Shown here piece by piece: positions 24,674 to 48,373 of a DNA stretch of 64,000 nt. Below the pieces are notes generated by a model, which was not told the origin of the DNA, ran no database searches, and was given only the letters and a program-made list of their open reading frames with translations. The DNA comes from Tessaracoccus bendigoensis DSM 12906 (lineage in GTDB: Bacteria > Actinomycetota > Actinomycetes > Propionibacteriales > Propionibacteriaceae). The stretch covers positions 1 to 64,000 of the forward strand of contig NZ_FQZG01000011.1 of the NCBI RefSeq assembly GCF_900141915.1. Direction: 5' to 3'. Numbering within the stretch: position 1 is the first letter of the stretch; every line of letters begins with the position of its first letter. The position numbers and the translations under genes are program-made.

Positions 24674-24800
24674 CACCAGCGATGTGGCGTCGACACCAGG
24701 GAAAAGGCCTCGACACCAGGGAAATGGCGTCGACGCCAACGGAATAGCTCGTCACCAGGCGTATACCGCTGGTATCGAGCAACACCGCTGGTGTCCGCGA
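24674..24800. repeat. Array A: 20-bp periodic repeats that invert around a GTATAC palindrome
   Basis: In the 320-bp gap between convergent LacI and DUF624 genes, CACCAG-type units start at 24674, 24694, 24714, 24734 (variant CGCCA) and 24753. CTGGT units in the opposite orientation start at 24769 and 24788. The switch point is the 20-bp near-palindrome ACCAGGCGTATACCGCTGGT (24754-24773). The unit consensus read towards CTGGT is CTGGTGTCG followed by about 11 looser bases. A second array with the same plan lies at 48213-48373. I see nothing else in this gap. Confidence 0.85.
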
Positions 24801-24879
24801 GGATCATCAGCCCCCGCGCTCCCAAGGGACGAACGACCAGTGAGCCCCACCACCGCCTCGCCGAAGAACGACTGCCCAC

Positions 24880-25539
24880 CTACTTATGGTGGTGTTCAGT
24901 TATGCGAGGGCCAAGGGTCTCCAGGTCTCGGACCGCTAGCCAGGTGGCGGTGAGCATCACGAGGCCCGGGCCGAAGGTGATACCGATCGCAGGCTGGGCG
25001 AGCAGGAGCAGTAGGACGGCCACGCAGACGGGAAACAGGATCAGGGTCGAACCCACCTTCACCGCGGGAAGCACGATGGCGGCGCGCCAAGGGACCTCGA
25101 CCGGCAGTGCGTTTCGCGGGGGGTCCATCAGCACGACCCGCAGCGCGAGGGCACGGACGAAGTAGCCTCCGAAGAGCAGGAGCGGTACCGACACGACCCA
25201 GCCGCCGGGCAACACGCCGAGGAATGCGAGGATGATCTCAGTGGACAGGACCAGCGCGACCAGGCCCCAAGGGGCCAATCGACGCTGTGAGCTCCAAAAG
25301 GATGATCGCCAGGCGGTGACCGCGTCGCGCCAGGGAGTCCCGTCGCCTTCCGGGGTCAGTTGTGCCCTCGACATGGCCACGGCCGCGCGGCACGCGGGGG
25401 CGAAACCGAGGACCACTCCCCCCGCCAACAGGCCGAGCAGGAACGCCAAGCCGATCTCTACCGGTGCGGTCAGCCAACCGAGCCACCGCATGACGGTGAC
25501 GGCCCAACCGCCCCCCTCCGACTTGGCGGCCGTGCTCAT
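24880..25539 (-). CDS. DUF624 (YesL-like) membrane protein
   Basis: The 219-residue membrane protein has about five hydrophobic segments (starting near residues 20-45). The DUF624 pattern is FAPACRAAVAMSRAQL...WRDAVTAWRSSFWSSQRR. YesL-type proteins are found beside carbohydrate ABC transporters and glycosidases, but their role is not settled. The ATG at 25539 overlaps the GH43 stop (ATGA), so it is translationally coupled and is the last gene of the arabinan transport operon. The longer open frame upstream is GH43 out of frame. Confidence 0.8.
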   Translation of the reverse strand: MSTAAKSEGGGWAVTVMRWLGWLTAPVEIGLAFLLGLLAGGVVLGFAPACRAAVAMSRAQLTPEGDGTPWRDAVTAWRSSFWSSQRRLAPWGLVALVLSTEIILAFLGVLPGGWVVSVPLLLFGGYFVRALALRVVLMDPPRNALPVEVPWRAAIVLPAVKVGSTLILFPVCVAVLLLLLAQPAIGITFGPGLVMLTATWLAVRDLETLGPRITEHHHK

Positions 25540-26780
25540 CGCTCCCCCTGTAACCAGACGGCCTGCCCCGACCGGTCGAGCGCCGAGACGCTCAGGACGG
25601 GGCCTTCCGCGGATAGGTCGGTGAACGCGACGCCGACCAGGCTCACCCCGTCTACGACGACGCGAACCCGCCCTTGTCGATCGATGACGCCCAGCTCGAC
25701 GGTGGTCGGCGTCGGCTCGACAGGGTCGGTGACGCCGTCGATGAACCGGGTCGCCACCCATCTCGCGGGGGGCTCGGCCTGCGAGTCGGGCTGCCCGCCG
25801 AAGACCACGGGAGAGACGACCGGCCAGCCGCTTCTCGTCCAGGCAAGCTGGCGGATCTGGGCGCAGTGGCTATCCGGATCGGCCCCGTATCGGACGTGGT
25901 GAACCAGGAATGCACGCTCGCCGTCGAGGAGATGCGAACTGTGCCCAGGGGCCACCCACGTCCGACCCTCGACGTCAACATGGCTGCCGATAAGCAGGTT
26001 TCCGGTCGGTTCCGGTGGTTCCTGCCTGTGCATCATGGAGCGCTGCTGGGCGTCGCGATACTCGCCGGTGATGGCCCGGCTCCTGGCCGCGCGCACGTGG
26101 TAGGTGTCGAAGAGCGAGTCGAAGGAGCTGAACAGGTAGTAGTGACCGTGGTCCCGGTTCCACAGCGCGTGGGCACCTTCGATGGCGCCGTTGATGGACG
26201 CTGCCCGCTGGGCGACCGGTACGCCGAGATCGTCTGTGCGCACCGGCCTGCCGTCGGCGTCGAGGGGAAGTACCCGCAGACCGCCGAAGAAGGACCCGAA
26301 GAACAACCAGTCCCGGCCCTCGGAGTCTGTGGTGACCGCGGCGTCGATGGCGTTGACCTCCGACGTGTGGTGTTCGGTCCGCACCACCACCCCCTGATCG
26401 ACCCATGGTCCCCTGGCGCTCGGGGCCGTGGCCAACGAGATGGCCGAGGTCCGCGACCCGAAGGTGGAGGCCGAATGGTACATCCGGAACTCATCACCTC
26501 GCCGCACCACCTCGGGGGCCCAAAGGCCCTCGGCTCCGCTCCAGTCGGCGGCCTGCCTGGGCACGCCGTCGAAGGCATGCCCACCCCAGCGCCACGTGAT
26601 CAGGTCGTCGGAGAGCCGCAACTGCGCGCCGACGCCCGGCCCACCGACGGCCGTGTCTGTCGAGACCATCACGTAGCCACCGTCCCGGTCACGGACGATG
26701 GTCGGATCATGCGCGCCGTCCAGGCCAGGATCGACCCAATGGGCGGTGCCGACGGCGCGTCTCAGGTAATCGGGTTCCAT
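25536..26780 (-). CDS. GH43 family glycosidase, probably intracellular arabinan-degrading
   Basis: The 414-residue protein has the five-bladed beta-propeller motifs of GH43. GAHDPTIV holds the catalytic base Asp, followed by LWAPEVV, NAIDAAVT with the second Asp and INGAIEGAHALW with the acid Glu. There is no signal peptide. Arabinanase-like spacing and the surrounding genes suggest it cuts imported arabino-oligosaccharides. It starts 1 nt after the upstream permease gene ends. The C-terminal 90 or so residues form an extra beta-rich part. Confidence 0.87.
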   Translation of the reverse strand: MEPDYLRRAVGTAHWVDPGLDGAHDPTIVRDRDGGYVMVSTDTAVGGPGVGAQLRLSDDLITWRWGGHAFDGVPRQAADWSGAEGLWAPEVVRRGDEFRMYHSASTFGSRTSAISLATAPSARGPWVDQGVVVRTEHHTSEVNAIDAAVTTDSEGRDWLFFGSFFGGLRVLPLDADGRPVRTDDLGVPVAQRAASINGAIEGAHALWNRDHGHYYLFSSFDSLFDTYHVRAARSRAITGEYRDAQQRSMMHRQEPPEPTGNLLIGSHVDVEGRTWVAPGHSSHLLDGERAFLVHHVRYGADPDSHCAQIRQLAWTRSGWPVVSPVVFGGQPDSQAEPPARWVATRFIDGVTDPVEPTPTTVELGVIDRQGRVRVVVDGVSLVGVAFTDLSAEGPVLSVSALDRSGQAVWLQGER

Positions 26781-26781
26781 G

Positions 26782-27630
26782 TCAGCCCTTTGTCCCGGTC
26801 AGAGCGACCGATTCGATGATCTGACGCTGGAAAGCAACGAAGATCGCGAAGATCGGCACCAATGCGATCACCGATGCGGTCATGATCAACGGGTAGTCGG
26901 TCTGGATCGCGTACGCCGCGTTGAAGTTGGCGATCACGAGCTGCAACGTCATCTTCTCTGGGCTGTTGAGGTAGATGACAGGACCGATGTAGTCGTTCCA
27001 GACGGCCATGAACCACAGGATGAACTGTGCGGCTATGGCCGGCCGGATCAGGGGCAGGATCATCGTGGTGAAGATCCTCACGTACCCTGCGCCGTCGATC
27101 TTGGCAGCCTCGATGACCGAGTCGGGCGTTGAGGCCAGGTACTGCCGGAGGAAGAAGATCATCATGATGTTTCCGAACAACCCGGGAATGATCAGCGGCA
27201 GCAGCGTATCGACCCATCCGATGGTCGAGAACATGATGAACTGCGGAATCAGCAGCGTGGGCATGGGGATCATCAACCCCGCCAGCAACCCGATGAAGAT
27301 GGCGTTCTTTCCGGGGAGGCGCAGCTTCGCGAAAGCAAAGGCGGCCATGGTGGAGGCGATGGTGCCGATGATGGTGACGGAGAAGCTCACGATCATCGAG
27401 TTTGCGATACCGGATGCGAGCGGACCGGCCTCCCAGACCCGCAGATAGTTCTCCCACTGTGCGGGTCGTGGGATCCACTCCGGCGGGAGCGCGAACACCG
27501 ATTCCTTGGTCTTGAGAGAGGTGGACAGCATCCACACCAGCGGCGCGACCATGATGATGCCGCCAAGCGCCAGCAGGATCGAGACGACGATGTTGCCAGT
27601 TGCGTACTTGGACTTGCGTGACATGGCCAT
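26782..27630 (-). CDS. Arabinan-locus ABC transporter permease (MalG type)
   Basis: The 282-residue membrane protein has six membrane segments. The EAA loop is SVIEAAKIDGAGYVRIFTTMILPLIRPA in the middle third. TSLKTKESVFALPPEWIP near the N-terminus marks the second CUT1 permease. The ATG at 27630 lies 1 nt after the upstream permease stop; an earlier in-frame ATG lies inside that gene. The proposed substrate is arabino-oligosaccharide, from the GH43 and GH51 neighbours. Confidence 0.92.
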   Translation of the reverse strand: MAMSRKSKYATGNIVVSILLALGGIIMVAPLVWMLSTSLKTKESVFALPPEWIPRPAQWENYLRVWEAGPLASGIANSMIVSFSVTIIGTIASTMAAFAFAKLRLPGKNAIFIGLLAGLMIPMPTLLIPQFIMFSTIGWVDTLLPLIIPGLFGNIMMIFFLRQYLASTPDSVIEAAKIDGAGYVRIFTTMILPLIRPAIAAQFILWFMAVWNDYIGPVIYLNSPEKMTLQLVIANFNAAYAIQTDYPLIMTASVIALVPIFAIFVAFQRQIIESVALTGTKG

Positions 27631-27631
27631 C

Positions 27632-28540
27632 TCAGTCGACCTCCACCTGGTTGCGGGCATTGAGACGGAACTGGATCAACGTCACGATGAAAATGATGAT
27701 CCCCAGCACGACCGCCATCGAGGATGCGTAGCCCATCTGGAGGTTCTTGAAGGCCTTCTGCCAGATGTACCAGACGATCGAGGCCGTGCTCCATTCCGGG
27801 CCACCGGTAGGCGTCATGATGTTGATCTCGGTGAAGATCTGCGCCCCGCCGATGATGTTGGTCACCACCAGGAAGAAGGTGACGGGCCTGACCATCGGGA
27901 GCGTGATGCTCCAGAATTGCCGCCACGAGTTCGCCCCGTCGATCGCGGCCGCTTCGTAGAGGCTCCGGGGAACGGACTGGATGGCGGCCAGGTACAGCAG
28001 CATGGAATAGCCGAGGCCCTTCCATACGGACATGATGATGATCGCAGGCTTTGACCAGGCGGCATCCTGCAGCCAGTTTGGGCCGTCGATCCCGAAGAAC
28101 CCGAGCATCTGGTTGACCAGCCCGAAGTCACCGTTGAAGGCCCACTGCCACAAGATGGCGATCGCGGCGAGCGACGAGACCACAGGAACATAGTAGATGG
28201 CCCGGAAGAAGCTTCTTCCGAACATCTTCCGGTTCATGGCCAGAGCCAGAACGAGCGAGAGAACCAGACCGATCGGGATGCCGATCATGTAGAAGAAGGT
28301 GTTTCCCATCGCCTGCCAGAAGTAGGGGTCCTTCAGCAGCCTCGTGTAGTTGTCGAAACCCACCCAATCCTGTACTCCGAGGCCGTTCATGTTGGTGAGC
28401 GAGGCGTAGATGGAGTAGCCGAGCGGGAACGCCGTGAACAGCGCGAACCCGATCAGCGGTAGGGCGACGAAGAGCAGCGCGACGCGGTGCTCGGTGCGGT
28501 AAAGCCGGCTCTTGGTGCGCGGCAGGGCGGTCGTGGTCAT
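27632..28540 (-). CDS. Arabinan-locus ABC transporter permease (MalF type)
   Basis: The 302-residue membrane protein has a first membrane segment at about residues 20-45 (VALLFVALPLIGFALFTAFP). The EAA loop is SLYEAAAIDGANSWRQFWSITLPMV. The ATG at 28540 has AGAGG about 7 nt upstream and gives the usual N-terminus MTTTALPRTK. A 13-bp hairpin precedes it, after the binding-protein gene. Like the other two sugar operons here, this one lacks its own ATPase gene. Confidence 0.92.
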   Translation of the reverse strand: MTTTALPRTKSRLYRTEHRVALLFVALPLIGFALFTAFPLGYSIYASLTNMNGLGVQDWVGFDNYTRLLKDPYFWQAMGNTFFYMIGIPIGLVLSLVLALAMNRKMFGRSFFRAIYYVPVVSSLAAIAILWQWAFNGDFGLVNQMLGFFGIDGPNWLQDAAWSKPAIIIMSVWKGLGYSMLLYLAAIQSVPRSLYEAAAIDGANSWRQFWSITLPMVRPVTFFLVVTNIIGGAQIFTEINIMTPTGGPEWSTASIVWYIWQKAFKNLQMGYASSMAVVLGIIIFIVTLIQFRLNARNQVEVD

Positions 28541-28566
28541 GTGGATCCTCTGGATACCTGCTCGGG

Positions 28567-28599
28567 GGCCGGTGCAGGTCGCGTGGACCCGCACCGGCC
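28567..28599 (-). promoter_or_regulatory. Intercistronic hairpin after the binding-protein gene, arabinan operon
   Basis: GGCCGGTGC (28567-28575) pairs with GCACCGGCC (28591-28599), and inside GGTC pairs with GACC around a 5-nt loop. The stem is thus 13 bp with one A/C mismatch. It begins 6 nt after the SBP stop and lies before the first permease gene, the same place as the hairpin of operon 1. Confidence 0.7.
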
Positions 28600-28605
28600 G
28601 ATCGA

Positions 28606-29952
28606 TCAGCGGTTCTGTTCAGCCTGCTGGTTGGCGGCGTCCAACTTCTCCTGCATGCGCGGCTGGACTTCCTTGCAGTAGTCCGCAGCGCTCTTCTTCC
28701 CGTCCAGCACGGGCTGGATTCCGACCCAGAACTCGTCGTACCACTCACCGCTCCATGTGGTAGCGGCCGGAAGCGCCCGTCCGGTCTCCTGGATGATGTT
28801 CAGGAACTCGGCCTTGTTCTCCGGCATGCCTTCGCTCGTTGCGAACTCGTTCGTGGCCATGTCGATGAGGTTCGGGACCTGGACTCCGGCCTTCCAGAGT
28901 TGCCGCTGGGCCTCCTCGTTCGTGGAGAGGTACACGGCGAGCTTTGCCGCAAGGTCGGGGTGGTCGGTGCTCTGTGCCACCGCGATACCGAGCGACCCGA
29001 CCCAGGTGGCCGTCTCCCCCGTGCCCATGACGGGATAGGGGATCAGGTCCCAGTCGAAGTCGAGCTTGGTGTAGGTCGACACGTCCCAGGGGCCGACGGG
29101 GAAGAAGCCGATCTCGCCCTTCATCCAGCGCTGATAGGTGTCGAGGGTCTGCGCCTCGGCGATCGAGGGGGTGGACTTGTCCACGTTCTGGATGTCGGCG
29201 AACGTCTGCAGCGCCTCGACGAACTCGGGCTTGTCGACGGTGACCGTCGTCTTCGCCTCATCGACCCAGTCGCCGCCATTGGACCATACGAACGCCTGGA
29301 GGTTCCAGGTCACGTTTAGCCCCGTCCCCCACTGGTCCAGTTCGCCGTCGCCGTTGGTGTCTGTGGTCAGTTGCTTGGCGACGGCCCGGAACTCGTCCAT
29401 GGTGTAGGGCTTTTCGGGATCGGGCAGCGGGATTCCGGCCGCTTCGAACATGGTCCGGTTATAGCCGAACGAGAACGGGCCGATGTCCTTGGGCATGCCG
29501 TACATCGCACCCTGGCCGACCCGTTCACCGTCGAAGCGGTATGAGTTGACGCCGTAGGCCCAGACGTTGTCCAGGTCGACGCCGGAGGCCTCGACCTCGG
29601 CGGTGATGTCGCGCACCACGTGGTTGGTGGCGAACGCCATCACCGAACCCTGCTCAAGGTAGAAGACGTCGGGCACCTGGTTGCCGGTGATGGCAGCCTG
29701 AAGCTTGGTCGTGTACTGGTCCGCGTCGGTGACGATCACCTTGACGGAACAGTCGTTGGCCTCCTCGAACGCCTTGATGGCGATGTTGTAGGCGGCGCGC
29801 TCGTCCTCGCCGCCCCGGTACATGTAGGTCAGTTCCGGGCGCCCGTCCGATGTCGTGCCACCCGGCTGGCTGGAATTGCCGCAGGCGCTCAACCCGGCGG
29901 TCATGGCGATCCCACCAGTTCCGAGGAGGAAGCTGCGTCGACGAATGTTCAT
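28606..29952 (-). CDS. Arabinan-locus ABC transporter sugar-binding lipoprotein
   Basis: The 448-residue solute-binding protein starts MNIRRRSFLLGTGG, a twin-arginine-like signal, and ends the signal with GLSAC, so Cys24 is the likely lipidated residue. Family-1 SBP blocks include TKLQAAITGNQVPDVFYLEQGS and GYNRTMFEAAGIPLPDPEKPYT. The ATG at 29952 has GGAGA 5 nt before it; an upstream ATG is less likely. It is expressed from a strong promoter at 30019-30047 and is divergent from the GH51 gene. Arabino-oligosaccharide binding is inferred from context. Confidence 0.92.
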   Translation of the reverse strand: MNIRRRSFLLGTGGIAMTAGLSACGNSSQPGGTTSDGRPELTYMYRGGEDERAAYNIAIKAFEEANDCSVKVIVTDADQYTTKLQAAITGNQVPDVFYLEQGSVMAFATNHVVRDITAEVEASGVDLDNVWAYGVNSYRFDGERVGQGAMYGMPKDIGPFSFGYNRTMFEAAGIPLPDPEKPYTMDEFRAVAKQLTTDTNGDGELDQWGTGLNVTWNLQAFVWSNGGDWVDEAKTTVTVDKPEFVEALQTFADIQNVDKSTPSIAEAQTLDTYQRWMKGEIGFFPVGPWDVSTYTKLDFDWDLIPYPVMGTGETATWVGSLGIAVAQSTDHPDLAAKLAVYLSTNEEAQRQLWKAGVQVPNLIDMATNEFATSEGMPENKAEFLNIIQETGRALPAATTWSGEWYDEFWVGIQPVLDGKKSAADYCKEVQPRMQEKLDAANQQAEQNR

Positions 29953-30018
29953 CTCTGTCTCCTTCTGTGGATCCCCGGTGAGCATCCTTGCTCTGCCTCC
30001 AGGTCATCCCTCAGAGAA

Positions 30019-30047
30019 TTATTACTACGATGAATGGCGTTCGTCAA
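30019..30047 (-). promoter_or_regulatory. Promoter of the arabinan transport operon
   Basis: On the minus strand TTGACG (30042-30047) and TAATAA (30019-30024) are exactly 17 bp apart. This is the best promoter match in the window. It drives SBP-permease-permease-GH43-DUF624 with a leader of about 60 nt. Confidence 0.75.
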
Positions 30048-30060
30048 CAGGTTTGCGAGA

Positions 30061-30150
30061 AGGCTAGCAGCAAGCCTAGTCAATCCGCTATTGACTGGAG
30101 ATCATCGGTGAGGGAAGATTGTTGTACATCGTTGTAGGCATTGTAGCCAG
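30061..30150. promoter_or_regulatory. Operator-like palindromes between the divergent arabinan operons
   Basis: AGTCAAT-N5-ATTGACT forms a 19-bp palindrome at 30078-30096. It is next to a smaller AGGCT/AGCCT pair at 30061-30077. Further on, TTGTA is repeated at 30122, 30132 and 30141, about one helical turn apart, just before the GH51 gene. The elements lie between the SBP promoter and the GH51 start (ribosome site GGAGA 6 nt before the ATG), a fitting place for a regulator of both. Confidence 0.5.
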
Positions 30151-30162
30151 CAGGAGAAGATC

Positions 30163-31665
30163 ATGCGTTCAGCCTCACTAGTAGTCGACCCCGCCTTCAC
30201 CGTCGGCCCCGTGCGCCGTCGGACCTTCGGGTCGTTCGTGGAGCATCTTGGAAGGTGCGTCTACACGGGCATCTATGAGCCCGGTCACCCGACCTCTGAT
30301 GAGGACGGCTTCCGCGAGGATGTCCTGGCCCTGACCCGCGAGCTCGGGGTCTCCACCATCCGCTACCCGGGTGGGAACTTCGTCTCGGGCTACCGCTGGG
30401 AGGACGGGGTCGGACCCGTCGCGGAGCGTCCCCGCCGCCTCGATCTGGCCTGGCATTCGATGGACCCGAACACCGTCGGCACCGACGAGTTCATGAAATG
30501 GGCGGCCAAGGCAGGCATCGAGCCGATGATGGCCGTCAACCTCGGCACGCGCGGGACAGAGGCCGCGCTCGACCTGCTGGAGTACTGCAACATTCCGGCA
30601 GATTCGGCCATCGCCGAACGCCGCCGCGCCAACGGCGCCGATGAGCCCTATCGCGTCAAGATGTGGTGCCTCGGCAACGAGATGGACGGCCCTTGGCAGA
30701 TCGGCCACAAGACAGCCCACGAGTATGGGCGACTCGCGGCCGAGACCGCACGCGCCATGCGCATGATGGATCCCTCGATCGAGCTCGTCGCCTGCGGTTC
30801 GTCGTCACGGGCGATGCCGACCTTCGGCGAGTGGGAGCGCACCGTGCTGACGCAGGCGTGGGAGTTCGTCGACATGGTCTCGGCGCATGCGTACTACTGG
30901 GAGCGGGGCGATGACCTCCAGAGCTTCCTCGGCAGCGCCGTCGACATGGACCGCTTCATCGAACAGGTCGCAGCCACCGCCGACGCTGTTGGCGCCGCGA
31001 ACAAGTCGGAAAAGGTGATCGGCATCAGCTTCGACGAGTGGAACGTCTGGTACCAGGATCGCGCCGAATCAAAGCCCCCGACAGGCGACGACTGGCCGGT
31101 TGCGCCGGTGCTGCTGGAGGACAACTACTCCGTAGCCGACGCGGTCGTCGTGGGCAACCTCCTGATCAGCCTTCTGCGACACACCGACCGCGTCTGGTCC
31201 GCCAACCTGGCTCAACTTGTCAACGTGATCGCCCCCATCATGACGGTGCCAGGCGGGAAGGCGTGGAAGCAGACGATCTTCCACCCGTTCGCACTGACCG
31301 CCCGCCACGCCTCCGGCGAGGTCCTCCGCGTCCACCTCGATTCCCCGCAGCTGCCGACCACGGAGTTCGGCACGATCCCTGCCCTCGACGCGGTCGCCAC
31401 GTCCGGCGACGGCAACCTCACGGTGTTCCTGGTCAACCGCTCCCTCGACGAGTCGGTCACCACCTCGCTAGACCTGCGCGGTCAGGAGCACGACCTGATC
31501 GAGGCCCTGACGCTGAGCAACGACGACCCCCGCTACCAGGCCAGCGCGGAGGACGACGACACGGTCGTCCCGCTGCCAAACCGGTCTGTGAAGCTCGACG
31601 GGGCCCTGGTGGAGCTCACCCTCCCACCCGCCTCCTGGACCATGGTCCGGCTGGCGGCGCGATGA
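30163..31665 (+). CDS. Alpha-L-arabinofuranosidase, GH51
   Basis: The 500-residue enzyme removes terminal L-arabinofuranose from arabinan or arabino-oligosaccharides. The GH51 barrel has FGSFVEHLGRCVYTGIYEPG at the start. The acid/base Glu is in WCLGNEMDGPWQ (about residue 173), and the nucleophile Glu is in ISFDEWNVWY (about 294). There is no signal peptide, so it acts in the cytoplasm on imported sugars. Its stop overlaps the start of the GH43 lipoprotein gene (ATGA). Confidence 0.95.
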   Translation: MRSASLVVDPAFTVGPVRRRTFGSFVEHLGRCVYTGIYEPGHPTSDEDGFREDVLALTRELGVSTIRYPGGNFVSGYRWEDGVGPVAERPRRLDLAWHSMDPNTVGTDEFMKWAAKAGIEPMMAVNLGTRGTEAALDLLEYCNIPADSAIAERRRANGADEPYRVKMWCLGNEMDGPWQIGHKTAHEYGRLAAETARAMRMMDPSIELVACGSSSRAMPTFGEWERTVLTQAWEFVDMVSAHAYYWERGDDLQSFLGSAVDMDRFIEQVAATADAVGAANKSEKVIGISFDEWNVWYQDRAESKPPTGDDWPVAPVLLEDNYSVADAVVVGNLLISLLRHTDRVWSANLAQLVNVIAPIMTVPGGKAWKQTIFHPFALTARHASGEVLRVHLDSPQLPTTEFGTIPALDAVATSGDGNLTVFLVNRSLDESVTTSLDLRGQEHDLIEALTLSNDDPRYQASAEDDDTVVPLPNRSVKLDGALVELTLPPASWTMVRLAAR

Positions 31666-32690
31666 GACGCTGGATCGCGCTCGCCCTCGCCGCCGTGCTT
31701 GCGGTGGTCGGATGTTCGGCCGACCCCGAGTGGGCAGAGCCCATCGAGGTCTCGGGGGACATCAACGTGCACGACCCCGGCCTGGCCCTCGACGACGAGG
31801 GCCTCCCCTGGGTCATCGCGTCCACCGGCGACGAACGCATCGGGTTGGGCGCGATCCAGATCCGCACCTCCGACGACGGAGGTGCGACCTGGGAACACAC
31901 CGGTGAGGCCTGGACACCGGCCACCGAACCAGAATGGATCCGGGAGATCGTGCCCGGCGTCACCAACTTCTGGGCGCCGGAGCTGGTCAGGGTCGAAGAG
32001 ACCTGGTACCTCTACTATGCGGCCTCGACCTTCGGCTCGAACACCTCCGTGATCGCGCTGATGACCAATACCGCCTTCGACCCGCACAACCCGGGGGACG
32101 GCTGGGTGGATCGCGGCCTGGTCGTACAGAGCACGGGCGAAGACAACTTCAATGCGATCGATCCGTCGGTCCTGTTCGACACCGACGGCAACGGCTGGCT
32201 GGCATTCGGCTCGTTCTGGGGAGGCGTCCAGCTGGTCGCGCTCGACTTCCCGTCAGGCGGGCTTGAAGCTGGGGCGCAACCTGTGACGATCGCGAGCCGC
32301 GGCACCAGTACCAACGCCATCGAGGCGCCTTCTCTCATCAGCCACGACGGCTACTACTTCCTTTTCGTCTCCTTCGACAAATGCTGTTCCGGCACGTCGA
32401 GCACCTACAACATCAACGTCGGTCGCTCGGAGACGCCCGAGGGGCCCTATCTCGACAAGGCGGGAAATGACCTGGCCGACGGCGGGGGCACCATGCTGCT
32501 TGAGAGCGTCGGCGACCAGATCGGCCCGGGAGGGCAGTCCGTGGTGGGCGACAGGATCGCGTTCCACTTCTATGACGCCGAGGCAGGTGGCGCGCCGACC
32601 CTGGCCCTTCGCACCCTGGCTTGGCGCGACGGTTGGCCGGTCGTCGCGACCCAGGCAGAAGCCGCAGAGATGCCCTTCTACGTGGAGTGA
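31662..32690 (+). CDS. Secreted GH43 endo-arabinanase, lipoprotein
   Basis: The 342-residue protein has a signal peptide, MRRWIALALAAVLAVVGC, with Cys18 as the lipidation site, so it sits on the outer face of the membrane. GH43 motifs are VHDPGL (base Asp), FWAPELV, FNAIDPSV and TNAIEAPSL (acid Glu). The block VSFDKCCSGTSSTYNI is typical of endo-1,5-alpha-L-arabinanases. It probably cuts arabinan outside the cell for the nearby ABC importer. The ATG at 31662 overlaps the GH51 stop; the longer frame upstream is a GH51 shadow. Confidence 0.92.
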   Translation: MRRWIALALAAVLAVVGCSADPEWAEPIEVSGDINVHDPGLALDDEGLPWVIASTGDERIGLGAIQIRTSDDGGATWEHTGEAWTPATEPEWIREIVPGVTNFWAPELVRVEETWYLYYAASTFGSNTSVIALMTNTAFDPHNPGDGWVDRGLVVQSTGEDNFNAIDPSVLFDTDGNGWLAFGSFWGGVQLVALDFPSGGLEAGAQPVTIASRGTSTNAIEAPSLISHDGYYFLFVSFDKCCSGTSSTYNINVGRSETPEGPYLDKAGNDLADGGGTMLLESVGDQIGPGGQSVVGDRIAFHFYDAEAGGAPTLALRTLAWRDGWPVVATQAEAAEMPFYVE

Positions 32691-32707
32691 GCCCGCGCAA
32701 CAGCACC

Positions 32708-32739
32708 GGCCCAGGTCTGTCACGATGACCTGACGGGCC
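32708..32739. terminator. Possible bidirectional terminator between GH43 and baeRF11 genes
   Basis: CAGGTC (32712-32717) pairs with GACCTG (32727-32732), and outside it GGCCC pairs with GGGCC past a small bulge. The hairpin lies between two convergent stop codons 67 bp apart. No T-tract is present. Confidence 0.45.
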
Positions 32740-37401: not shown

Positions 37402-37402
37402 C

Positions 37403-40947: not shown

Positions 40948-40966
40948 GACTCACCGCCTTGTGTTG

Positions 40967-40988
40967 TTGTATTAGGTACTTAATACAA
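40967..40988. promoter_or_regulatory. Probable GntR/YtrA operator over the ABC-exporter promoter
   Basis: TTGTATTA-N6-TAATACAA is a perfect 8-bp inverted repeat, 20 bp upstream of the GntR start. On the minus strand TAATAC inside it can serve as -10 with TTGTCC upstream as -35 (about 16 bp), so a bound regulator would block the promoter. Confidence 0.7.
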
Positions 40989-41040
40989 TAGGACAAAGGT
41001 GTGTGCGGGTCAAGGGCTGGGGGCGCGGGCTGGGTGAGGA

Positions 41041-41352
41041 GTTTGAGCAGGATTTGCTAGTCATTGGGGGCTTGGGTGCGTTGTCTGCTGACGATGCCAG
41101 CGGAAGGGATTTGACTTGCGGATCCCTGCTCAAAGCTGGGCGGGGCAGGAGTTTGAGCAGGATTTACTACTCATTGGGGGCTTGGGTGCGTTGTCTGCTG
41201 ACGATGCCAGCGGAAGGGATTTGACTTGCGGATCCCTGCTCAAAGCTGGGCGAGGCATGAGTTTGAGCAGGATCCACTGCTCATTGGGGGCTCGGGCGCA
41301 TTGTCTGCTGACGATGCCAGCGGAAGGGATTTGACTTGCGGATCCTGCTCAA
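41041..41352. repeat. Three tandem copies of a 110-bp unit with inverted ends
   Basis: GTTTGAGCAG recurs at 41041, 41151 and 41261, a period of exactly 110 bp. The third copy is shorter and ends near 41352. Each unit starts TTTGAGCAGG and carries CCTGCTCAA near its end. In copy 3 the ends are a perfect 13-bp inverted repeat (41263-41275 with 41340-41352, TTGAGCAGGATCC). Inner sequence such as GACGATGCCAGCGGAAGGG is identical between copies. The open frames crossing it are repeats read as protein and not genes. Confidence 0.92.
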
Positions 41353-41373
41353 CCCGGGGATCCTGGCCGAAGC

Positions 41374-42564
41374 TCAGTCGAGCAGGTCGCGGATCACGCC
41401 GTCGGCCAGGAGGCGTGCCCCGGCGCTCACCCGGACGCGTTCGCCCACCCGCTCGACCATGCCCCGATCCTCAAGGTCGGGCAGCCGTGCCGCCTCGGAA
41501 GGCGTCAGGACGTCGACCGGCAGGCCGTCGCGGAGCCGCAACTCGAGCAGCACCCGCTCGACCCTGCGCTGGTCGGCGTCGAGCACCTCCCTGGCCAAGG
41601 CGGGCGAATGCCCCTCGGCCAGGGCCGCGGCGTAGCTGCGCGGGTGTTTGCGGTTCCAGAACCTGACCCCTGCGATGTGGGAGTGGGCGCCCGGGCCGGT
41701 CCCCCACCAGTCGGCGCCCTTCCAGTAGGCCAGGTTGTGCCTGCATTCGCCGCCCGGGAGCGCCCAGTTGCTGACTTCGTAGTTATCGAACCCGAGCGCC
41801 GCCAGGGCCTCTTCGGCCAGCAGGTACTTGTCGGCCAGGTCATCATCGTCCGGCATCGGAATCTCCCCGCGGCGCACCTGCATCGCGAGCCTCGTGCCCT
41901 CCTCCACGATCAGGGAATAGGCGCTGACGTGGTCGACGGAGGTGCCCGTGACGGCGTCCAGGCTCGCCCGCCAGTCGGCGAGGCTCTCCCCCGGGGTGCC
42001 GTAGATCAGGTCGAGGCTCACGTGCTCAAAGCCCGCCTCCCGCGCCCAGCCGGCGGCCGCCAACCCGCGTTCCGGGCTGTGCTCGCGCTCCAGCACCTTG
42101 AGCACGTGCGGTACGACCGACTGCAGGCCGAGCGAGATGCGGGTGAAGCCGTGTTCCCGCAGCCTCGCCAGGTATTCGGGCGTGACGGTTTCAGGGTTGG
42201 CCTCCGTCGTCACCTCGGCGTCGGGCGCCAGCTCGAACCGGTCGGCGATCGCGCCGAGGATGCCTGAGAGGTCCGGCTCGGGCAGCCACGTCGGGGTGCC
42301 GCCGCCGAAGAACACCGTCTCGACCCGGCGCGGTCCCAACTCCCGGGCCGCCAGGTCCAGCTCTGCCCGCACCGCCTCCAGGTAGGACGCCGACGCGCCG
42401 TCGCCCGCCTCGCCCGGGGTGTAGGTGTTGAAGTCGCAGTATCCGCACCGCACCCGGCAGAACGGCACGTGGACGTAGATGGAAAACGGCGCAGACGATG
42501 ACCGCGCGGCGGAGGGTAGCGATCCGTCCAGCGGAGCCGGATCGCCTTCGGGAAGTTGGGCCAC
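41374..42564 (-). CDS. hemW: Heme chaperone HemW (radical SAM)
   Basis: The 396-residue radical SAM protein has the cluster motif CRVRCGYCDF (CxxxCxxC) near residue 36 and FFGGGTPTWLP, TEANPETV, ISLGLQSVVPHVL and the HemN C-terminal domain. HemW inserts heme into target proteins and has often been mislabelled as coproporphyrinogen oxidase. In related genomes it sits between lepA and hrcA; here both neighbours are separated from it by sugar genes. Confidence 0.94.
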   Translation of the reverse strand: MAQLPEGDPAPLDGSLPSAARSSSAPFSIYVHVPFCRVRCGYCDFNTYTPGEAGDGASASYLEAVRAELDLAARELGPRRVETVFFGGGTPTWLPEPDLSGILGAIADRFELAPDAEVTTEANPETVTPEYLARLREHGFTRISLGLQSVVPHVLKVLEREHSPERGLAAAGWAREAGFEHVSLDLIYGTPGESLADWRASLDAVTGTSVDHVSAYSLIVEEGTRLAMQVRRGEIPMPDDDDLADKYLLAEEALAALGFDNYEVSNWALPGGECRHNLAYWKGADWWGTGPGAHSHIAGVRFWNRKHPRSYAAALAEGHSPALAREVLDADQRRVERVLLELRLRDGLPVDVLTPSEAARLPDLEDRGMVERVGERVRVSAGARLLADGVIRDLLD

Positions 42565-42635
42565 CTCGTCAGCTTACGGCGCAATCGTCGTAGCCTCGCC
42601 CACCAGGCGGGCCGATCCGTGCCAAGGTAAGCCCC

Positions 42636-43925
42636 ATGAATATCTCCCGACGATCCCTTCTGCTCGCGGGTGGCAGCCTGGCTGCAGCCGCAACCCTGGC
42701 CGCGTGCGGCAACAACAATCCCCTTTCCTCCCCGACGCCGATCGGCTCGACCTCCGCCTCCGGCTCGGCCAGCGACGTGACGCTGCAGCAGTGGTACCAC
42801 GAGTACGGCGAAGCCGGCGTGAAGGAGGCGGTCGAAAGGTATGCGGCCGCTTACCCGAACGCGACGGTGGAGGTGAAGTGGACCCCCGGCGACTACTCCT
42901 CGATCCTCGCCGCGCAACTGCTCACCAACGACATCCCTGACGTCTTCGAATACGAGCAGGGCGGCTCGCTCGACATGATCCGCGCCGGTCAGCTCGAGGA
43001 CCTGACCGAGTTGATCGGCGACCAGGCCGCAGACTTCAACCCCGCCGTCATGAAGCGGTTCACGTTCGAAGACAAGATCTACGGCATTCCGCAGACGATC
43101 GACATGCAGCTGCTGTACTACCGGCCCTCGCTGCTCGAAGCCGCGGGCGTGGAACCGCCCACCACCTTCGAACAGCTCGTGGCTGCGGCAAATGCCGTCA
43201 AGTCGGCCGACATCGGCGGCTTCTTCGCCGGCAACGACGGCGGCATCGGCGTGCTCGGCACGATCCTGATCTGGGCCTCGGGCAGCGACCAACTCACCGA
43301 GGACCGCAGCGCCGTCGCATTCCTCAACGACGACTTCTACGCCGCGCTGACCTCCTACCGCGACTTCCTGCGATCCGGCGGGGTGCTGGAGGCCGCCTCG
43401 GCCGAATGGTACGACGGGGCCGCCTTCGTCAACGGCGAGGCCGCGATGCAGTGGGGTGGCCTGTGGTCGCTGCCCGACATCAAGAAGGCCTGGGGCGACG
43501 ACGTCGCGGTGCTGCCGTTCCCGGCGATCGGGGCCAACGGGCGCCCAGCGGTCCCCTTCGGCGCGTTCGGGTCCTGCGTCGCGGCCAAGGGTGCGAACGT
43601 CGACGCCTCGAAGGCCTTCGCGAAGTGGCTGTGGATCGACCAGGAAGAGTTCCAGGTGGACTTCTCCAACTCCTACGGCACCCACATCCCGGCCAAGCCG
43701 TCGCTCGTCGCCCAGGCGGACAAGCTCGCCGACGGCCCGGGCAAGGACGCAGCCCAGTTCGTCTCCGATCACGGCTTCGCCAACGACATCATGTGGTCGG
43801 GCGCCCTGGGCGACGCCTACTCCACCGCGGTCAGCAACGTGATCAAGGACGGCAAGGATCCGAAGACGGAGTTCGCCGCGTTCGAGGCGACCGCCAAGAC
43901 CGAGCTGGCCAAGCTGCAAAGCTGA
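42636..43925 (+). CDS. ABC transporter sugar-binding lipoprotein (operon 3)
   Basis: The 429-residue solute-binding protein has a twin-arginine-like lipoprotein signal, MNISRRSLLLAGGSLAAAATLAAC by parts, with Cys24 after LAA. Family-1 motifs include ILAAQLLTNDIPDVFEYEQGG and YYRPSLLEAAGVEPPTTFEQL. It heads a plus-strand operon with two permeases and is divergent from hemW. The first permease gene overlaps its stop, so unlike the other two sugar operons there is no intergenic hairpin. The ligand is unknown. Confidence 0.92.
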   Translation: MNISRRSLLLAGGSLAAAATLAACGNNNPLSSPTPIGSTSASGSASDVTLQQWYHEYGEAGVKEAVERYAAAYPNATVEVKWTPGDYSSILAAQLLTNDIPDVFEYEQGGSLDMIRAGQLEDLTELIGDQAADFNPAVMKRFTFEDKIYGIPQTIDMQLLYYRPSLLEAAGVEPPTTFEQLVAAANAVKSADIGGFFAGNDGGIGVLGTILIWASGSDQLTEDRSAVAFLNDDFYAALTSYRDFLRSGGVLEAASAEWYDGAAFVNGEAAMQWGGLWSLPDIKKAWGDDVAVLPFPAIGANGRPAVPFGAFGSCVAAKGANVDASKAFAKWLWIDQEEFQVDFSNSYGTHIPAKPSLVAQADKLADGPGKDAAQFVSDHGFANDIMWSGALGDAYSTAVSNVIKDGKDPKTEFAAFEATAKTELAKLQS

Positions 43926-44878
43926 TGACGAGCGCCACAGCCCCCACCCAGCCCCGACGGGGGCTGTGGCACCGCGTGCGGGGGCGGCAAGGCCGCAACC
44001 TCTGGTTCGCGCTGTTCGTCGCCCCCTTCTTCATCGGCCTGCTGGTCTTCGTTTACGTGCCGATCGCGTGGAGTGCCTACCTCTCGTTCTTCGAGGCGCG
44101 CAACACCGTCACGCCGACCAAGTTCGTCGGGTTCGACAACTATCTCTACCTCCTGGGCGACGACCTGTTCCGCAACTCGCTGCTGGTGTTCGTCGCATTC
44201 GCGGTGTTCATCGTGCCGCTCACCTACGCCTGTTCGCTCGGCCTGGCGCTTCTGCTCGACAAGCTCCGCTGGGGCCGGGCATTCTTCCGGTCGGTGTTCT
44301 TCATCCCGACGGCGGTCTCATACGTCATCGCCGCGATCATCTGGCGGTTCAGCTTCTTCAACGGCGCCAGGTTCGGGCTGCTGAACTCATGGCTGCGCTC
44401 CTGGGGCTTCGACCCCGTCAACTGGCTGGGCGGCGGCAACAACCTGTACTGGATCGCGCTGGTCTCCGTGCGCCTATGGCTGCAGGTGGGCTTCTACATG
44501 ATCTTGTTCATCGCCGGCCTGAACAAGATCCCGGTCGAGACGTATGAGGCGGCCGCCCTGGACGGCGCGTCCGGCTGGAAGCTGCTGCGCTGGATCACAC
44601 TTCCCCAGCTGCGGGCCACGAGCGTCGCCGTGGTCATGCTGCTGTTGATCAACGCGTTCCAGGCTTTCGACGAGTTCTACAACATGCTCGGCTCGATCGG
44701 CTCCTACCCACCGTACGGCCGGCCCCCGCTGGTGCACCTCTACCTGATCGCGCTGGGCGGCGGCAAACAGGACCTCGGCGTCGGCGGAGCGGGCACCGTC
44801 ATCCTGACCGCGATCATCGTCGCCTTCGGAGTCCTGCAGAACCGGGTCCTCAACCGCGGCGAACGGGCCGATCGATGA
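43925..44878 (+). CDS. Carbohydrate ABC transporter permease (MalF type, operon 3)
   Basis: The 317-residue protein has a first membrane segment near residues 28-52 (WFALFVAPFFIGLLVFVYVP) and the EAA loop TYEAAALDGASGWKLLRWITLPQL. Its ATG overlaps the SBP stop by 1 nt (TGATG). The longer frame upstream is the SBP gene out of frame. The C-terminus overlaps the next permease by 4 nt. Confidence 0.92.
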   Translation: MTSATAPTQPRRGLWHRVRGRQGRNLWFALFVAPFFIGLLVFVYVPIAWSAYLSFFEARNTVTPTKFVGFDNYLYLLGDDLFRNSLLVFVAFAVFIVPLTYACSLGLALLLDKLRWGRAFFRSVFFIPTAVSYVIAAIIWRFSFFNGARFGLLNSWLRSWGFDPVNWLGGGNNLYWIALVSVRLWLQVGFYMILFIAGLNKIPVETYEAAALDGASGWKLLRWITLPQLRATSVAVVMLLLINAFQAFDEFYNMLGSIGSYPPYGRPPLVHLYLIALGGGKQDLGVGGAGTVILTAIIVAFGVLQNRVLNRGERADR

Positions 44879-45699
44879 AGACGGGAAAGGTGGGTCTCGC
44901 GCTGCGCTACGGTGTCGCCTCCGCTTTGGCGCTGCTCTTCCTGCTGCCGCTCTACGTCATCGTCCGCAACGCCTTCTCCACCAACGCCAACATCACCGCG
45001 GCCCGCTGGAACTGGCTGCCTGACCAGGCGAACCTGACCAACCTGCACTCGCTGCTGGCCAACGACTCGATCGGCATCGTCCGCGCGATGGGCAACTCGG
45101 CGGTCATGTCGCTGCTGCAGACCGCCGGCACCGTCACCGTCAGCCTCCTGGCCGGCTACGCGCTGGCCCGCTACACCCACCGGGTCGCCAGGGTGCTGCT
45201 CGGCCTGACCGTGTTCACGCTGATGGTGCCCGCGGCGACCACGTTTCTGCCGATGTTCATCATCACGGCCCAGCTCGGCTGGATCGACACCTTCCGGGGC
45301 CTGGTGATCCCCGGCATGTTTTCGGCGTTTGCGACCTACCTGTTCCGGCAGTTCTTCCTCGACTTCCCCGTCGAGCTGGAGGACGCCTCACTGATCGACG
45401 GCTGCAACCCTTGGACCAGTTTCTGGCGGATAGTGGTGCCCAACTCGACGGGAATCATCGCCGCGGTCGGCACGATCGTCCTGATCGGCTCGTGGAACGC
45501 GTTCCTGTGGCCGACCCTGATCGGCCGCGACGCGACCCGCACCGTCCAGGTGGCGCTGAGCCAGTTCATGACCAGCCAGGGGGTGCGTTATCCGGAGCTG
45601 TTCATGGGCACGTTGGTGGCGGTGCTTCCGATGCTGTTCGTCTTCTTGTTCCTGCAGCGCTACCTGGTTCAGGGGCTGACCACCTCCGGGCTTCGATAG
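44875..45699 (+). CDS. Carbohydrate ABC transporter permease (MalG type, operon 3)
   Basis: The 274-residue membrane protein has six segments and the EAA-like loop ELEDASLIDGCNPWTSFWRIVVPNS, in which Glu-Asp-Ala replaces the usual EAA. It overlaps the upstream permease by 4 nt. It is followed 25 nt later by hrpB on the same strand. No glycosidase or regulator lies nearby. Confidence 0.92.
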   Translation: MKTGKVGLALRYGVASALALLFLLPLYVIVRNAFSTNANITAARWNWLPDQANLTNLHSLLANDSIGIVRAMGNSAVMSLLQTAGTVTVSLLAGYALARYTHRVARVLLGLTVFTLMVPAATTFLPMFIITAQLGWIDTFRGLVIPGMFSAFATYLFRQFFLDFPVELEDASLIDGCNPWTSFWRIVVPNSTGIIAAVGTIVLIGSWNAFLWPTLIGRDATRTVQVALSQFMTSQGVRYPELFMGTLVAVLPMLFVFLFLQRYLVQGLTTSGLR

Positions 45700-45724
45700 A
45701 GGGCGGATCGGGCACACTTGGCTG

Positions 45725-48208
45725 GTGCCCACCCTCGCCGAACTCGTCTCCGACGGCTGCGGCCTGCCATTCGCCGCTGCCGCGGAGGCGCTGCGGGAGG
45801 CGGTCGGGGCGCACGGCGCGGCCGTCGTCGAGGCGCCGCCTGGAACGGGCAAGACCACCCTCGCGCCGCCGATCATTTCCGGCCTGGTCGAGGGGAGGGT
45901 GGTGGTCACCCAGCCAAGGCGGGTCGCGGCGCGCGCGGCCGCCCGTCGGCTCGCCGCCCTGACCGGGACGCCCGTTGGTGAACTGGTCGGCTACACGGTG
46001 CGCGGCGACAGAGTGCTTGGCGCCGACGCCAAAGTCGAGATGCTCACACCCGGAGTGCTGCTACGTCGACTGCTGCGCGACCCCGGCCTCGACGGGACCG
46101 GCGCCGTCATCCTTGACGAGGTCCACGAACGGGGCCTGGACACCGACCTGTTGGTCGGGCTGCTGGTCGAGGTGCGCGAGCTGCGCCCCGATCTGGTGGT
46201 GATCGCGATGTCGGCCACAGCCGACACCGAAACGTTGGCCGGGCTGCTCGGTGACACGGCGCCCGCACCGGTGGTCGGCGTGCCCGGCGTCCTCCACCCT
46301 CTGACGGCGCGCTACTGCCCCGGCCCGCTGCCGCTCGACGCCAGGGGCGTGAGCAGGGAGTTCCTCGCCCACGTCGCGACGGTTGCCAGGGCCGCGTTCG
46401 ACGAGCGTCCCGGCGACGGCGACGTCCTGGTCTTCCTGCCGGGGGCGCGCGAGGTCCGCGTCGTGGCCGACCTGCTGAGGGGCAGTGTCCCGGCAGAGGT
46501 GCTCGAGTTGCACGGGCAGATCCCGGCCCGGGAACAGGACAGGGCGATCTCGGGGAGGCGGCCGGGCGAGCCGCCCCGGATTGTGGTCTCGACCAACCTC
46601 GCCGAATCCTCGCTGACCGTCGCAGGGGTGCGCGTCGTCGTCGACGCCGGGCTGTCGCGGGAACCCCGGCGCGACTCCGCCCGCGGAATGTCCGGCCTGG
46701 TCACCGTCCGGTGTGCCCGGTCGTCAGCCGACCAGCGCGCAGGTCGCGCCGCCCGGCAGGGCCCGGGTGTGGTCTGGCGCTGCTACGACGAGGAAACCTA
46801 CGCGGGGCTTCGCCCGCAGGTGACCCCGGAATCGCAGACCACGGACCTGACCGGCGCCCTGCTGACGCTCGCAGCCTGGGGGTCGCCCCGCGGTGCGACG
46901 ATGCGGCTGCCCTCGCCGCTGCCGGCCGCCTCCGTCGCCGAGGATGAGGCCGTGCTGCGCTCGCTCGGCGCCGTCGATACGACTGGCCGCATCACCGAGG
47001 ACGGGCGTCGACTCGCCTCCATCCCCGCCTCACCGCGTTGGGCGAGGGCGCTCGTCGACGGTGCTGCCCTGGTCGGTTCGCGGACGGCGGCCGAGACGGT
47101 CGCCGCGGTGGAGTCGGGCGTCTCTGGCGACCTGGGCCGGGAGATCATCGCCCTCCGGCGCGGTGGAACCCCCGAGGCGAGGCGGTGGAAGGCAGAGGCC
47201 GATCGGCTCGCGCGCCTCATCGACGCCGCCCCCGGGACGGGTGCCCTGCCTGGTGCCGTCGTCGTTTTGGCCTTCCCGGAGCGGGTGGCGAGGAAGGTGG
47301 GTGGCACCTACCTCCTGGCCTCAGGCACCCGCGCCGCCGCTCCGCCTGAGCTCGCAGGACACGTTTGGCTGGCCGTCGCCGAGGTGACCAGGGCAGGTGG
47401 GGTGAGCGCGGCCGGTACCGGTGCGGTGATCCGCTCGGCCGCGCCCATAGATGAGCCGACGGCCCGGCTGGCCGGGCAACTCCTGGTTGAGGAGACTCGG
47501 GGCGAGTTGGTCGACGGCAGGCTCCGCGCCCGTCGGGTGGTCGCCCTCGGCGCGATCGAGCTCTCCTCGACACCGGTGCCCGCCCGGGAACTCGGGGCCC
47601 ACGCCGTCCGCGACGTCGTGGCGGCTCACGGGTTGGGCGTGATCGGCTGGTCGCAGTCGGCCGATGCGCTGCGTCGCAGGATGGCCCTGCTGCACCGCAG
47701 CATCGGCGGACGCTGGCCGGATGTGGGCGACGACGCGCTCCTGACCAGGCTCGACGACTGGCTGGCACCCGAGTTGCGGGCCGCGGCCGACACCGGGGCG
47801 CTGGCAGGGATCGACCTGACGACGCCGCTGCGCAGGCTCCTGCCCTGGCCGGAGGCCGGTCGGCTGGACGAGTTGGCACCGGAGCGACTCCAGGTGCCGA
47901 GCGGGTCGAGGATCCGGCTCGAGTACCCGCCTCACGACGCGGATGGACCGGTCGTCGTCGCCGTCAAGTTGCAGGAGTGCTTCGGGTTGGCGACGTCGCC
48001 AAGGTTGGTCGACGGTCGGGTGGAGGTGGTGTTCCACCTGCTGTCCCCCGCCGGTCGTCCGCTGGCGATCACCGGGGACCTCGCGTCGTTCTGGTCGGGG
48101 CCGTATGCGCAGGTGCGCTCGGAGATGCGCGGTCGCTACCCGAGGCACCCGTGGCCCGAAGACCCGTGGACGGCGCCTGCAACGGCGCGGACGAAGCGTC
48201 GAGGTTGA
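45725..48208 (+). CDS. hrpB: ATP-dependent helicase HrpB
   Basis: The 827-residue DEAH-family helicase has Walker A EAPPGTGKTTLAPP (about residues 37-50), motif II LDEVHERGLDTD, motif III MSATAD and motif VI SSADQRAGRAARQGPG. The HrpB C-terminal region is present. Its RNA-related role is poorly known. The GTG start at 45725 lies 6 nt after CACACT, a weak -10, so a separate leaderless promoter is possible; read-through from the sugar operon is the alternative. Confidence 0.93.
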   Translation: MPTLAELVSDGCGLPFAAAAEALREAVGAHGAAVVEAPPGTGKTTLAPPIISGLVEGRVVVTQPRRVAARAAARRLAALTGTPVGELVGYTVRGDRVLGADAKVEMLTPGVLLRRLLRDPGLDGTGAVILDEVHERGLDTDLLVGLLVEVRELRPDLVVIAMSATADTETLAGLLGDTAPAPVVGVPGVLHPLTARYCPGPLPLDARGVSREFLAHVATVARAAFDERPGDGDVLVFLPGAREVRVVADLLRGSVPAEVLELHGQIPAREQDRAISGRRPGEPPRIVVSTNLAESSLTVAGVRVVVDAGLSREPRRDSARGMSGLVTVRCARSSADQRAGRAARQGPGVVWRCYDEETYAGLRPQVTPESQTTDLTGALLTLAAWGSPRGATMRLPSPLPAASVAEDEAVLRSLGAVDTTGRITEDGRRLASIPASPRWARALVDGAALVGSRTAAETVAAVESGVSGDLGREIIALRRGGTPEARRWKAEADRLARLIDAAPGTGALPGAVVVLAFPERVARKVGGTYLLASGTRAAAPPELAGHVWLAVAEVTRAGGVSAAGTGAVIRSAAPIDEPTARLAGQLLVEETRGELVDGRLRARRVVALGAIELSSTPVPARELGAHAVRDVVAAHGLGVIGWSQSADALRRRMALLHRSIGGRWPDVGDDALLTRLDDWLAPELRAAADTGALAGIDLTTPLRRLLPWPEAGRLDELAPERLQVPSGSRIRLEYPPHDADGPVVVAVKLQECFGLATSPRLVDGRVEVVFHLLSPAGRPLAITGDLASFWSGPYAQVRSEMRGRYPRHPWPEDPWTAPATARTKRRG

Positions 48209-48212
48209 TCGC

Positions 48213-48373
48213 GGTCACGAGGGATTCTCTGGTCACGAGGGAGGGGTCGCGTTACCAGGGGAATGGCTGGATACCAGGGGTATACGGCTGGTGTCGTGCA
48301 ATAGCGCTGGTGTCGGGTCCGGATCGCTGGTGTCGCGCAATAGCGCTGGTGTCGCCGAGAACCGCTGGTGCGC
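48213..48373. repeat. Array B: 19-20 bp periodic repeats that invert around a GTATAC palindrome
   Basis: The gap between convergent hrpB and lepA is almost filled by repeats. GGTCACGAGG occurs at 48213 and 48231, and ACCAGGGG-type units start at 48254 and 48273. CTGGTGTCG units in the other orientation start at 48288, 48307, 48327, 48346 and 48365. The switch point is ACCAGGGGTATACGGCTGGT (48273-48292), two bases different from the switch point of array A at 24754-24773. Confidence 0.87.

Follow-up and report, generated by a model that had tools for sequence, protein, structure and literature searches.

The stretch of DNA analysed here, 64,000 nucleotides of Tessaracoccus bendigoensis DSM 12906 (contig NZ_FQZG01000011.1, positions 1 to 64,000 of the forward strand, called the window below), contains two arrays of short inverted units, and we show that both belong to a family of intergenic elements dispersed in Tessaracoccus, built on a rigid four-box plan and, as far as we have searched, undescribed. 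What the elements have in common is a quasi-palindromic core of 58 bp in which four boxes (CCWGC / GCWGG) stand around an 8-bp centre with a 19-bp step between the boxes of each arm. From comparison of the sequences a platform for protein binding appears to be the best supported mechanism, and we would place it a little short of an even chance. Dispersed palindromic repeats of bacteria are often discussed in terms of repetitive extragenic palindromic (REP) sequences and the REP-associated tyrosine transposases (RAYT), whereas the Tessaracoccus family has another, rigid architecture and comes without a RAYT in the 39 genomes searched. Its detected copy number, ranging from none to about a hundred across the genus, together with comparable orthologous sites, makes the protein, RNA and selfish explanations testable, and the element itself is a ready bait for finding a new DNA-binding protein.

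The two arrays of the window

The arrays and their parts, none of which has an assigned strand, are as follows.

24656..24792, array 1 (sequence, pattern and chain scans)
24735..24792, 58-bp core of array 1, four boxes and 8-bp centre (match to profile R1 at 24736-24792, model positions 2-58)
24754..24773, switch centre of array 1, ACCAGGCGTATACCGCTGGT (exact match)
48217..48369, array 2 (sequence, pattern and chain scans)
48254..48311, 58-bp core of array 2 (match to profile R1; this core is one of the 51 rows from which the profile was built)
48273..48292, switch centre of array 2, ACCAGGGGTATACGGCTGGT (exact match)

The left units of array 1 read ACCAG exactly at 24675, 24695, 24715 and 24754 and are degenerate (GCCAA) at 24735, while its right units, CTGGT, are at 24769 and 24788, giving five left and two right; a possible sixth left unit is the degenerate ACCAA at 24656. 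Array 2 has four left units, two of them degenerate (ACGAG at 48217 and 48235, then ACCAG at 48254 and 48273), and five right ones (CTGGT at 48288, 48307, 48327, 48346 and 48365). Each centre is an imperfect palindrome with GTATAC. A first-pass annotation, made from the letters of this DNA alone, had described two arrays of 19-20 bp units that switch orientation at a GTATAC centre, which the sequence and the scans bear out, and its unit counts, 5/2 and 4/5, are right if the degenerate units are included. Chance can be set aside, since a two-unit pattern matches the window five times against 0.01 expected and the pattern for the centre, allowing up to 3 mismatches, twice against 0.06. In the window, to which these searches were confined, no Rfam 15 family reached its gathering score, and the window contains no tRNA.

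Copies in the own genome and in Tessaracoccus sp. OS52

The same annotation spoke of two distant arrays, but dozens of copies exist in the genome. In the window's genome (G000, 4.13 Mb in 158 contigs) a three-unit pattern gives 121 matches and the centre, with up to 3 mismatches, 79 sites, the reversed controls being empty in both cases. A contig-wide genome scan named Tessaracoccus sp. OS52 as the sole organism, with 23 stretches, the window's own records possibly being omitted; there the three-unit pattern matches 154 times (2 in the reversed control), a core-plus-unit pattern has 57 sites and the G000-type centre 20. The chain scan, which covered fetched stretches preselected for arrays, found 70 arrays in G000, a few of which are other repeats, against 1 in reversed sequence, and 35 against 5 in OS52. 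Profile R1, built from 51 cores, gives 191 rows in G000 and 137 in OS52 with both strands counted. An element with a fixed plan had been supposed from the window, a supposition that would fall if there were no further copies; with the 79 centres of the own genome and dozens of copies in OS52 it holds. Of the 45 G000 clusters, 12 lie at the edge of a stretch or contig, and the arrays may account for some contig ends of this assembly.

Anatomy of the element

The boxes are GCWGGY-like, two pointing left and two pointing right around the centre, and the geometry 6-13-6-8-6-13-6 holds in 53 aligned cores from seven genomes. All invariant columns of this alignment fall inside the boxes, a result that is partly built in, as the cores had been chosen by their boxes or by a box-derived profile. 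To this core tails may be added, that is, additional units of the same direction 19-20 bp apart. The OS52 core reads ACCAGC-N13-ACCAGC-N8-GCTGGT-N13-GCTGGT with tail units of 20 bp, and its tails are mostly one-sided (at most 2 units on one side in 54 of 59 elements), so that most tail units have no partner arm; in 17 of 25 OS52 clusters the modules are repeated 2-6 times. In G000 extension on both arms is common, and the steps outward from the centre measure 19, 20, 19 and 20 bp (83 of 85 second steps are 20 bp, 36 of 42 third steps 19 bp and 23 of 24 fourth steps 20 bp), and OS52 follows 19, 20, 20 and 20 (second 56 of 60, third 46 of 47, fourth 16 of 18). The first step of 19 bp is set by core selection in these counts, and a chain scan permitting 20 bp as well still returned 19 wherever the next unit was intact. 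The G027 copies that we viewed are bare cores.

The sequence type is species-specific and the geometry is constant. Boxes read GCTGGT, GCAGGT, GCTGGC or GCAGGC according to the species, and often GCAAGC in G002, G004 and G005; the centre is GGTATACC-like in G000, GCAATTGC in G022, GATACATC-like in some copies of G007 and G027, and GCTACAGC in G002, G004 and G005. In the last three genomes the centre GCTACAGC or its complement GCTGTAGC occurs in 34 of 40 stretches and, being a palindrome broken only at its two middle bases, gives the element a direction. Many cores of G004, G002 and G005 are also flanked by an extra inverted segment around CCCGTCGGG, which by eye makes an element of about 90 bp.

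Distribution among genomes

At E <=0.01 profile R1 matched 10 of 39 Tessaracoccus genomes, the window's genome included, the matches in G008 being partial and doubtful. A second profile, R2, built from 53 cores of 7 genomes, was applied to 391 genomes of the order at E <=0.001 and matched 21 of the 36 Tessaracoccus genomes among them and 6 genomes outside the genus. Two of these six, G277 and G373, show the full geometry by eye, so that the element is convincingly present in two further genera of the same family, and the remaining four look like partial chance matches. A phylum-level profile search returned only the window's own genome among 396 at E <=1e-4. Both the order and phylum searches used strict filters, scored 14 candidates per genome and gave rough E-values, so that absence in them is weak evidence. 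Exact patterns had suggested that only two genomes have the family, and the profile searches rule this out. The number of detected copies goes from one (G001) up to the profile-row counts of G000 and OS52, with none in some relatives. A tree of LepA places G000 together with G019 and G028, both without a detected element, and OS52 stands apart from G000, adjoining G025; it is a tree of one gene with modest support of deep branches.

Genomic sites and neighbouring genes

Both arrays of the window lie between convergent genes:

23543..24559, + strand, LacI-family regulator gene beside array 1 (gene call; Pfam PF00356/PF13377 on 23525-24556)
24880..25539, - strand, DUF624 membrane protein gene, convergent, beside array 1 (gene call; PF04854 on the longer frame 24883-25761)
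45725..48208, + strand, HrpB-type ATP-dependent helicase gene, whose 3' end adjoins array 2 (Pfam PF08482)
48388..50217, - strand, lepA gene, convergent, beside array 2 (Pfam PF06421)

From the 3' end of the LacI gene to the first exact unit of array 1 there are 115 bp, and the hrpB-lepA gap is mostly taken up by array 2. The position between convergent gene ends, noticed in the first-pass annotation, is correct for both window arrays and does not extend to the family as a rule: the 56 classed clusters of G000 and OS52 divide into 16 convergent, 30 codirectional and 10 divergent ones (14 further clusters at the edge of a stretch or contig were left out of the classes). Compared with background gaps longer than 60 bp, array-bearing ones included (44 convergent, 142 codirectional and 83 divergent of 269), convergent sites are mildly in excess (p=0.038) and divergent ones are short (p=0.052). 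Judged by our own gene calls, with overlaps up to 40 bp not counted, the clusters are intergenic except for 2 G000 clusters that overlap short doubtful open reading frames, and in other genomes none of 17 loci has a predicted gene overlapping the element.

Some junctions are free of the element in relatives. The hrpB-lepA junction of G028 is by eye a short gap without an array, and the LacI-DUF624 junction, which has an array in G000 and in OS52, has none in six relatives. This junction is the one site common to G000 and OS52 among the fetched stretches, about what a rough estimate gives for chance, and sharing of sites by the two genomes was rejected as a signal. Other positions are in common between genomes. 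In both OS52 and G025 the element stands upstream of a LacI gene that is orthologous between the two (74.8% identity), with a different second flank, G007 and G025 have an orthologous element between the substrate-binding and permease genes of a sugar ATP-binding cassette (ABC) operon, read by eye, in DNA that is very similar throughout, and G002, G004 and G005 have many sites in common. Judging from these sequences, some element positions are old.

No recurrent neighbour gene that could act as a driver was found among 239 proteins encoded within two genes of arrays. LacI-type regulators do recur near arrays, with a raw count of 7 members, some of which come from overlapping stretches. The direction of tails was considered as a replication signal and rejected: by eye, tails run both ways within about 100 kb of the largest OS52 contig, as they also do relative to the flanking genes, and the replication or segregation role that had been offered for the arrays is not shown. 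A 5.4-kb contig of the own genome, G000:C66 (L074), carries parA- and parB-like genes (by eye) with arrays near both ends, so that breaks of the assembly may fall within arrays at the two ends of this contig.

Constraint on the boxes and pairing of the arms

Orthologous copies in G002, G004 and G005 allowed us to see which parts of the element change (13 of 14 comparisons aligned, not all of them independent, as several have their locus in common). Differences numbered 23 in the 312 box positions, 8 in the 104 of the 8-bp centre and 49 in the 338 of the 13-bp spacers, so that the rate of change in boxes and centre is half that in the spacers (p=0.004 for boxes against spacers), and phased boxes more conserved than their spacers are a property of protein-binding arrays. 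Single changes switched between pair and mismatch in 33 cases, between pair and wobble in 16 and between mismatch and mismatch in 3, the first two counts being, by our estimate, about those of unconstrained change; among double changes at paired positions a Watson-Crick pair was kept in only 3 of 12. The rates in boxes and spacers and the counts of pair changes place the constraint in boxes and centre more than in arm pairing.

Selection on pairing would be expected to give a better match between the two arms of an element than between arms taken from different elements in one genome. The match within elements was 0.527 against 0.569 (standard deviation (sd) 0.023) in G000 and 0.620 against 0.668 (sd 0.023) in OS52, both after related copies were collapsed, and 0.587 against 0.593 in G007 and 0.566 against 0.606 in G022, and there is accordingly no covariation of arms within the genome in these four of five genomes. 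For the centre of OS52 elements, the match between its two halves stays below expectation at every level of collapse. A real anti-pairing of arms was dropped as an explanation: it looked strong at first and shrank after related copies were collapsed, the match staying below expectation at the mildest collapse (P=0.038 and 0.018) and not at stricter ones. RNA folding of six stretches gave z of -4.10, -2.49, -1.65, -4.79, -5.65 and -0.51, below -2 in four of them; inverted repeats fold well regardless of function. In the two-genome alignment A1, paired cells made up 77.1% against 76.2% in shuffled ones, a level reached by 45 of 500 shuffles.

Proposed mechanism and the alternatives

From this analysis we suggest that the boxes would be binding sites of a putative sequence-specific, oligomerising DNA-binding protein, which may nucleate on the symmetric core and spread along the tail units. 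Copies would multiply locally as tandem modules and be dispersed, and a single protein reading the two arms may account for their joint change between species. Transcription insulation or ending, chromosome organisation and the element's own upkeep are candidate roles of such a protein. The complete system, in which a putative oligomeric protein reads the four-box core, sites have been multiplied and scattered intergenically without a Y1 transposase, and the site sequence and presumably the protein specificity turn over between species under fixed geometry, is a tentative proposal that we hold with rather low confidence. The lower change in boxes and centre and the lack of arm covariation inside four of the five genomes tested favour a DNA-protein platform over a folded RNA. 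Of the three roles initially offered for the arrays, protein-binding platform, replication or segregation site and RNA structure, the platform fits the evolutionary tests best, and the RNA structure, for which covariation between genomes speaks, is less well supported, given the within-genome result and the little kept pairing of orthologues.

Several observations weigh against a protein-binding platform. No cognate protein was found, the genes beside arrays have no candidate in common, and the box is looser in G002, G004 and G005, where many copies have the GCAAGC variant. Overall the core shows no clear excess of conservation over the more distant flanks, coding sequence among them (80 of 754 positions differ in the core and 339 of 2686 in these flanks, p=0.15), and the adjoining 17 bp on each side are less conserved (72 of 408 differ). 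Double changes at paired positions number 12 where 3.8 would be expected if they were independent. In G027 the match within elements is borderline, 0.692 against 0.577 (P=0.053). Arms covary strongly between genomes (paired cells over seven genomes 78.8% against 70.4%, covariation 0.294 against 0.162 in shuffles, reached by 0 of 500), as a kept hairpin would also give, although a single protein reading the two arms of a palindrome would lead to the same. By eye the palindromes are near-perfect in G001, G035 and G373, with 13 of 13, 12 of 13 and 10 of 13 spacer positions complementary; those of G001 and G035, genomes with few detected copies, are the best evidence on the side of a hairpin. In the sense orientation G.U mismatches exceed A.C ones (70 against 38 in raw counts, and 41.5 against 26.5 when counted by locus, p=0.07), which could come from RNA pairing or from transcription-linked mutation.

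Much of this would be accommodated if the elements were RNA or single-stranded DNA hairpins resembling REP sequences and bacterial interspersed mosaic elements (BIME), acting as terminators or mRNA stabilisers at 3' ends and inside operons. The folding scores, the orthologous copy inside the sugar ABC operon of G007 and G025, the mild excess of convergent sites and one G002-G004 double change that keeps its pair (C:G to T:A) speak for it too. We nevertheless find it unlikely, as arms do not covary within G000, OS52, G007 and G022, the OS52 centre halves match worse than expected, orthologous changes are close to unconstrained with few double changes keeping the pair, ten clusters lie between divergent genes and one-sided tails have no partner arm. 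The spread of clusters over all three orientation classes is also at variance with the position of intrinsic terminators at transcript 3' ends.

The elements could instead be selfish non-autonomous repeats, like miniature inverted-repeat transposable elements (MITEs) or paired REP sequences (REPINs), copied by an enzyme and without host function. High copy number in some species beside few or none detected in close relatives, species-specific sequence types, the array-free junctions described above and the dispersed sub-families of G000, found at many loci with 66-88% identity over 400-900 bp, are in keeping with this, and CGTC-type REPs are reported in PMC3733652 likewise to lack a dedicated transposase. 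Against it, a Y1/RAYT transposase (PF01797) was found in none of 39 Tessaracoccus genomes, while the control gave hits in 5 of 14 named genomes; no plasmid or phage record matched array 2; 26 stretches of viral contigs match the loose pattern once each and none holds an array; and boxes with centre change less than spacers at orthologous sites. On balance a selfish repeat is somewhat on the unlikely side, and it is compatible with protein binding. Identity with the REP/RAYT system is ruled out by the absence of PF01797 genes from the 39 genomes searched, and plasmid or phage origin was rejected on the empty plasmid and phage search with array 2 and the isolated viral matches. Recent transposition was likewise rejected, as the G000 sub-family copies have diverged to the identity given above and no clean common end was seen in them.

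Comparison with known systems

BIMEs combine inverted repeat units and stand both at gene ends and within operons, with REPs alternating with other motifs; the Tessaracoccus element differs from them in its continuous phased boxes and one-sided tails. Operator and iteron arrays consist of short, regularly phased boxes read by one protein, and the difference here is in the dozens of chromosomal copies, for which no linked regulator or replication gene was found. REPINs, according to PMC3116915, are inverted REP pairs linked to RAYTs, and they resemble our element in being dispersed, intergenic, made of inverted hairpin-capable units and divided into distinct sequence types, as well as in occurring as singles, tandem modules and clusters. 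The Tessaracoccus cores are indeed intergenic, inverted and able to fold as an extragenic hairpin-capable pair should, but they differ by having four boxes, fixed 19-bp spacing, an 8-bp centre and unpaired tails, and the GTAG end tag of REPINs was seen by eye only inside some of the OS52 centres (51 cores). CGTC-type REPs are palindromic families without associated transposase genes, with a stem of 8-9 bp, a loop of 4-5 nt and a terminal CGTC tag, reported in PMC3733652 from five phyla, this phylum not among them. The Tessaracoccus family shares with them the palindromic make-up and the lack of a dedicated transposase and differs in the 19-bp box spacing and 8-bp centre; a short stem with loop and terminal CGTC was not found, OS52 cores being mostly preceded by GTTC- or GTTT-like letters with no fixed CGTC tag (by eye). 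In open-access papers we found no description of the element, most subscription journals lying outside that scope.

Other repeats of the own genome

A motif GTTGAGCACTATCC or its complement is present at 2996 and 3064 of the window and in several array-bearing stretches of G000, with 11 copies in either form in 41 G000 stretches, the window included, and 0 in the reversed control. At positions 4545-4663 of stretch L069 (G000:C51) there is a separate 19-bp tandem repeat, GCTGGTTGAGCCGGGCTGG, belonging to a TTGAGCC-type family, of which the G000 stretches contain 15 GCTGGTTGAGCC against 1 reversed. A third repeat, GACCAGTGGCCGATTT, partly arranged as a 39-bp tandem array, occupies positions 5523-5644 of stretch L102 (G000:C97) and has 5 copies in the G000 stretches, with 0 reversed.

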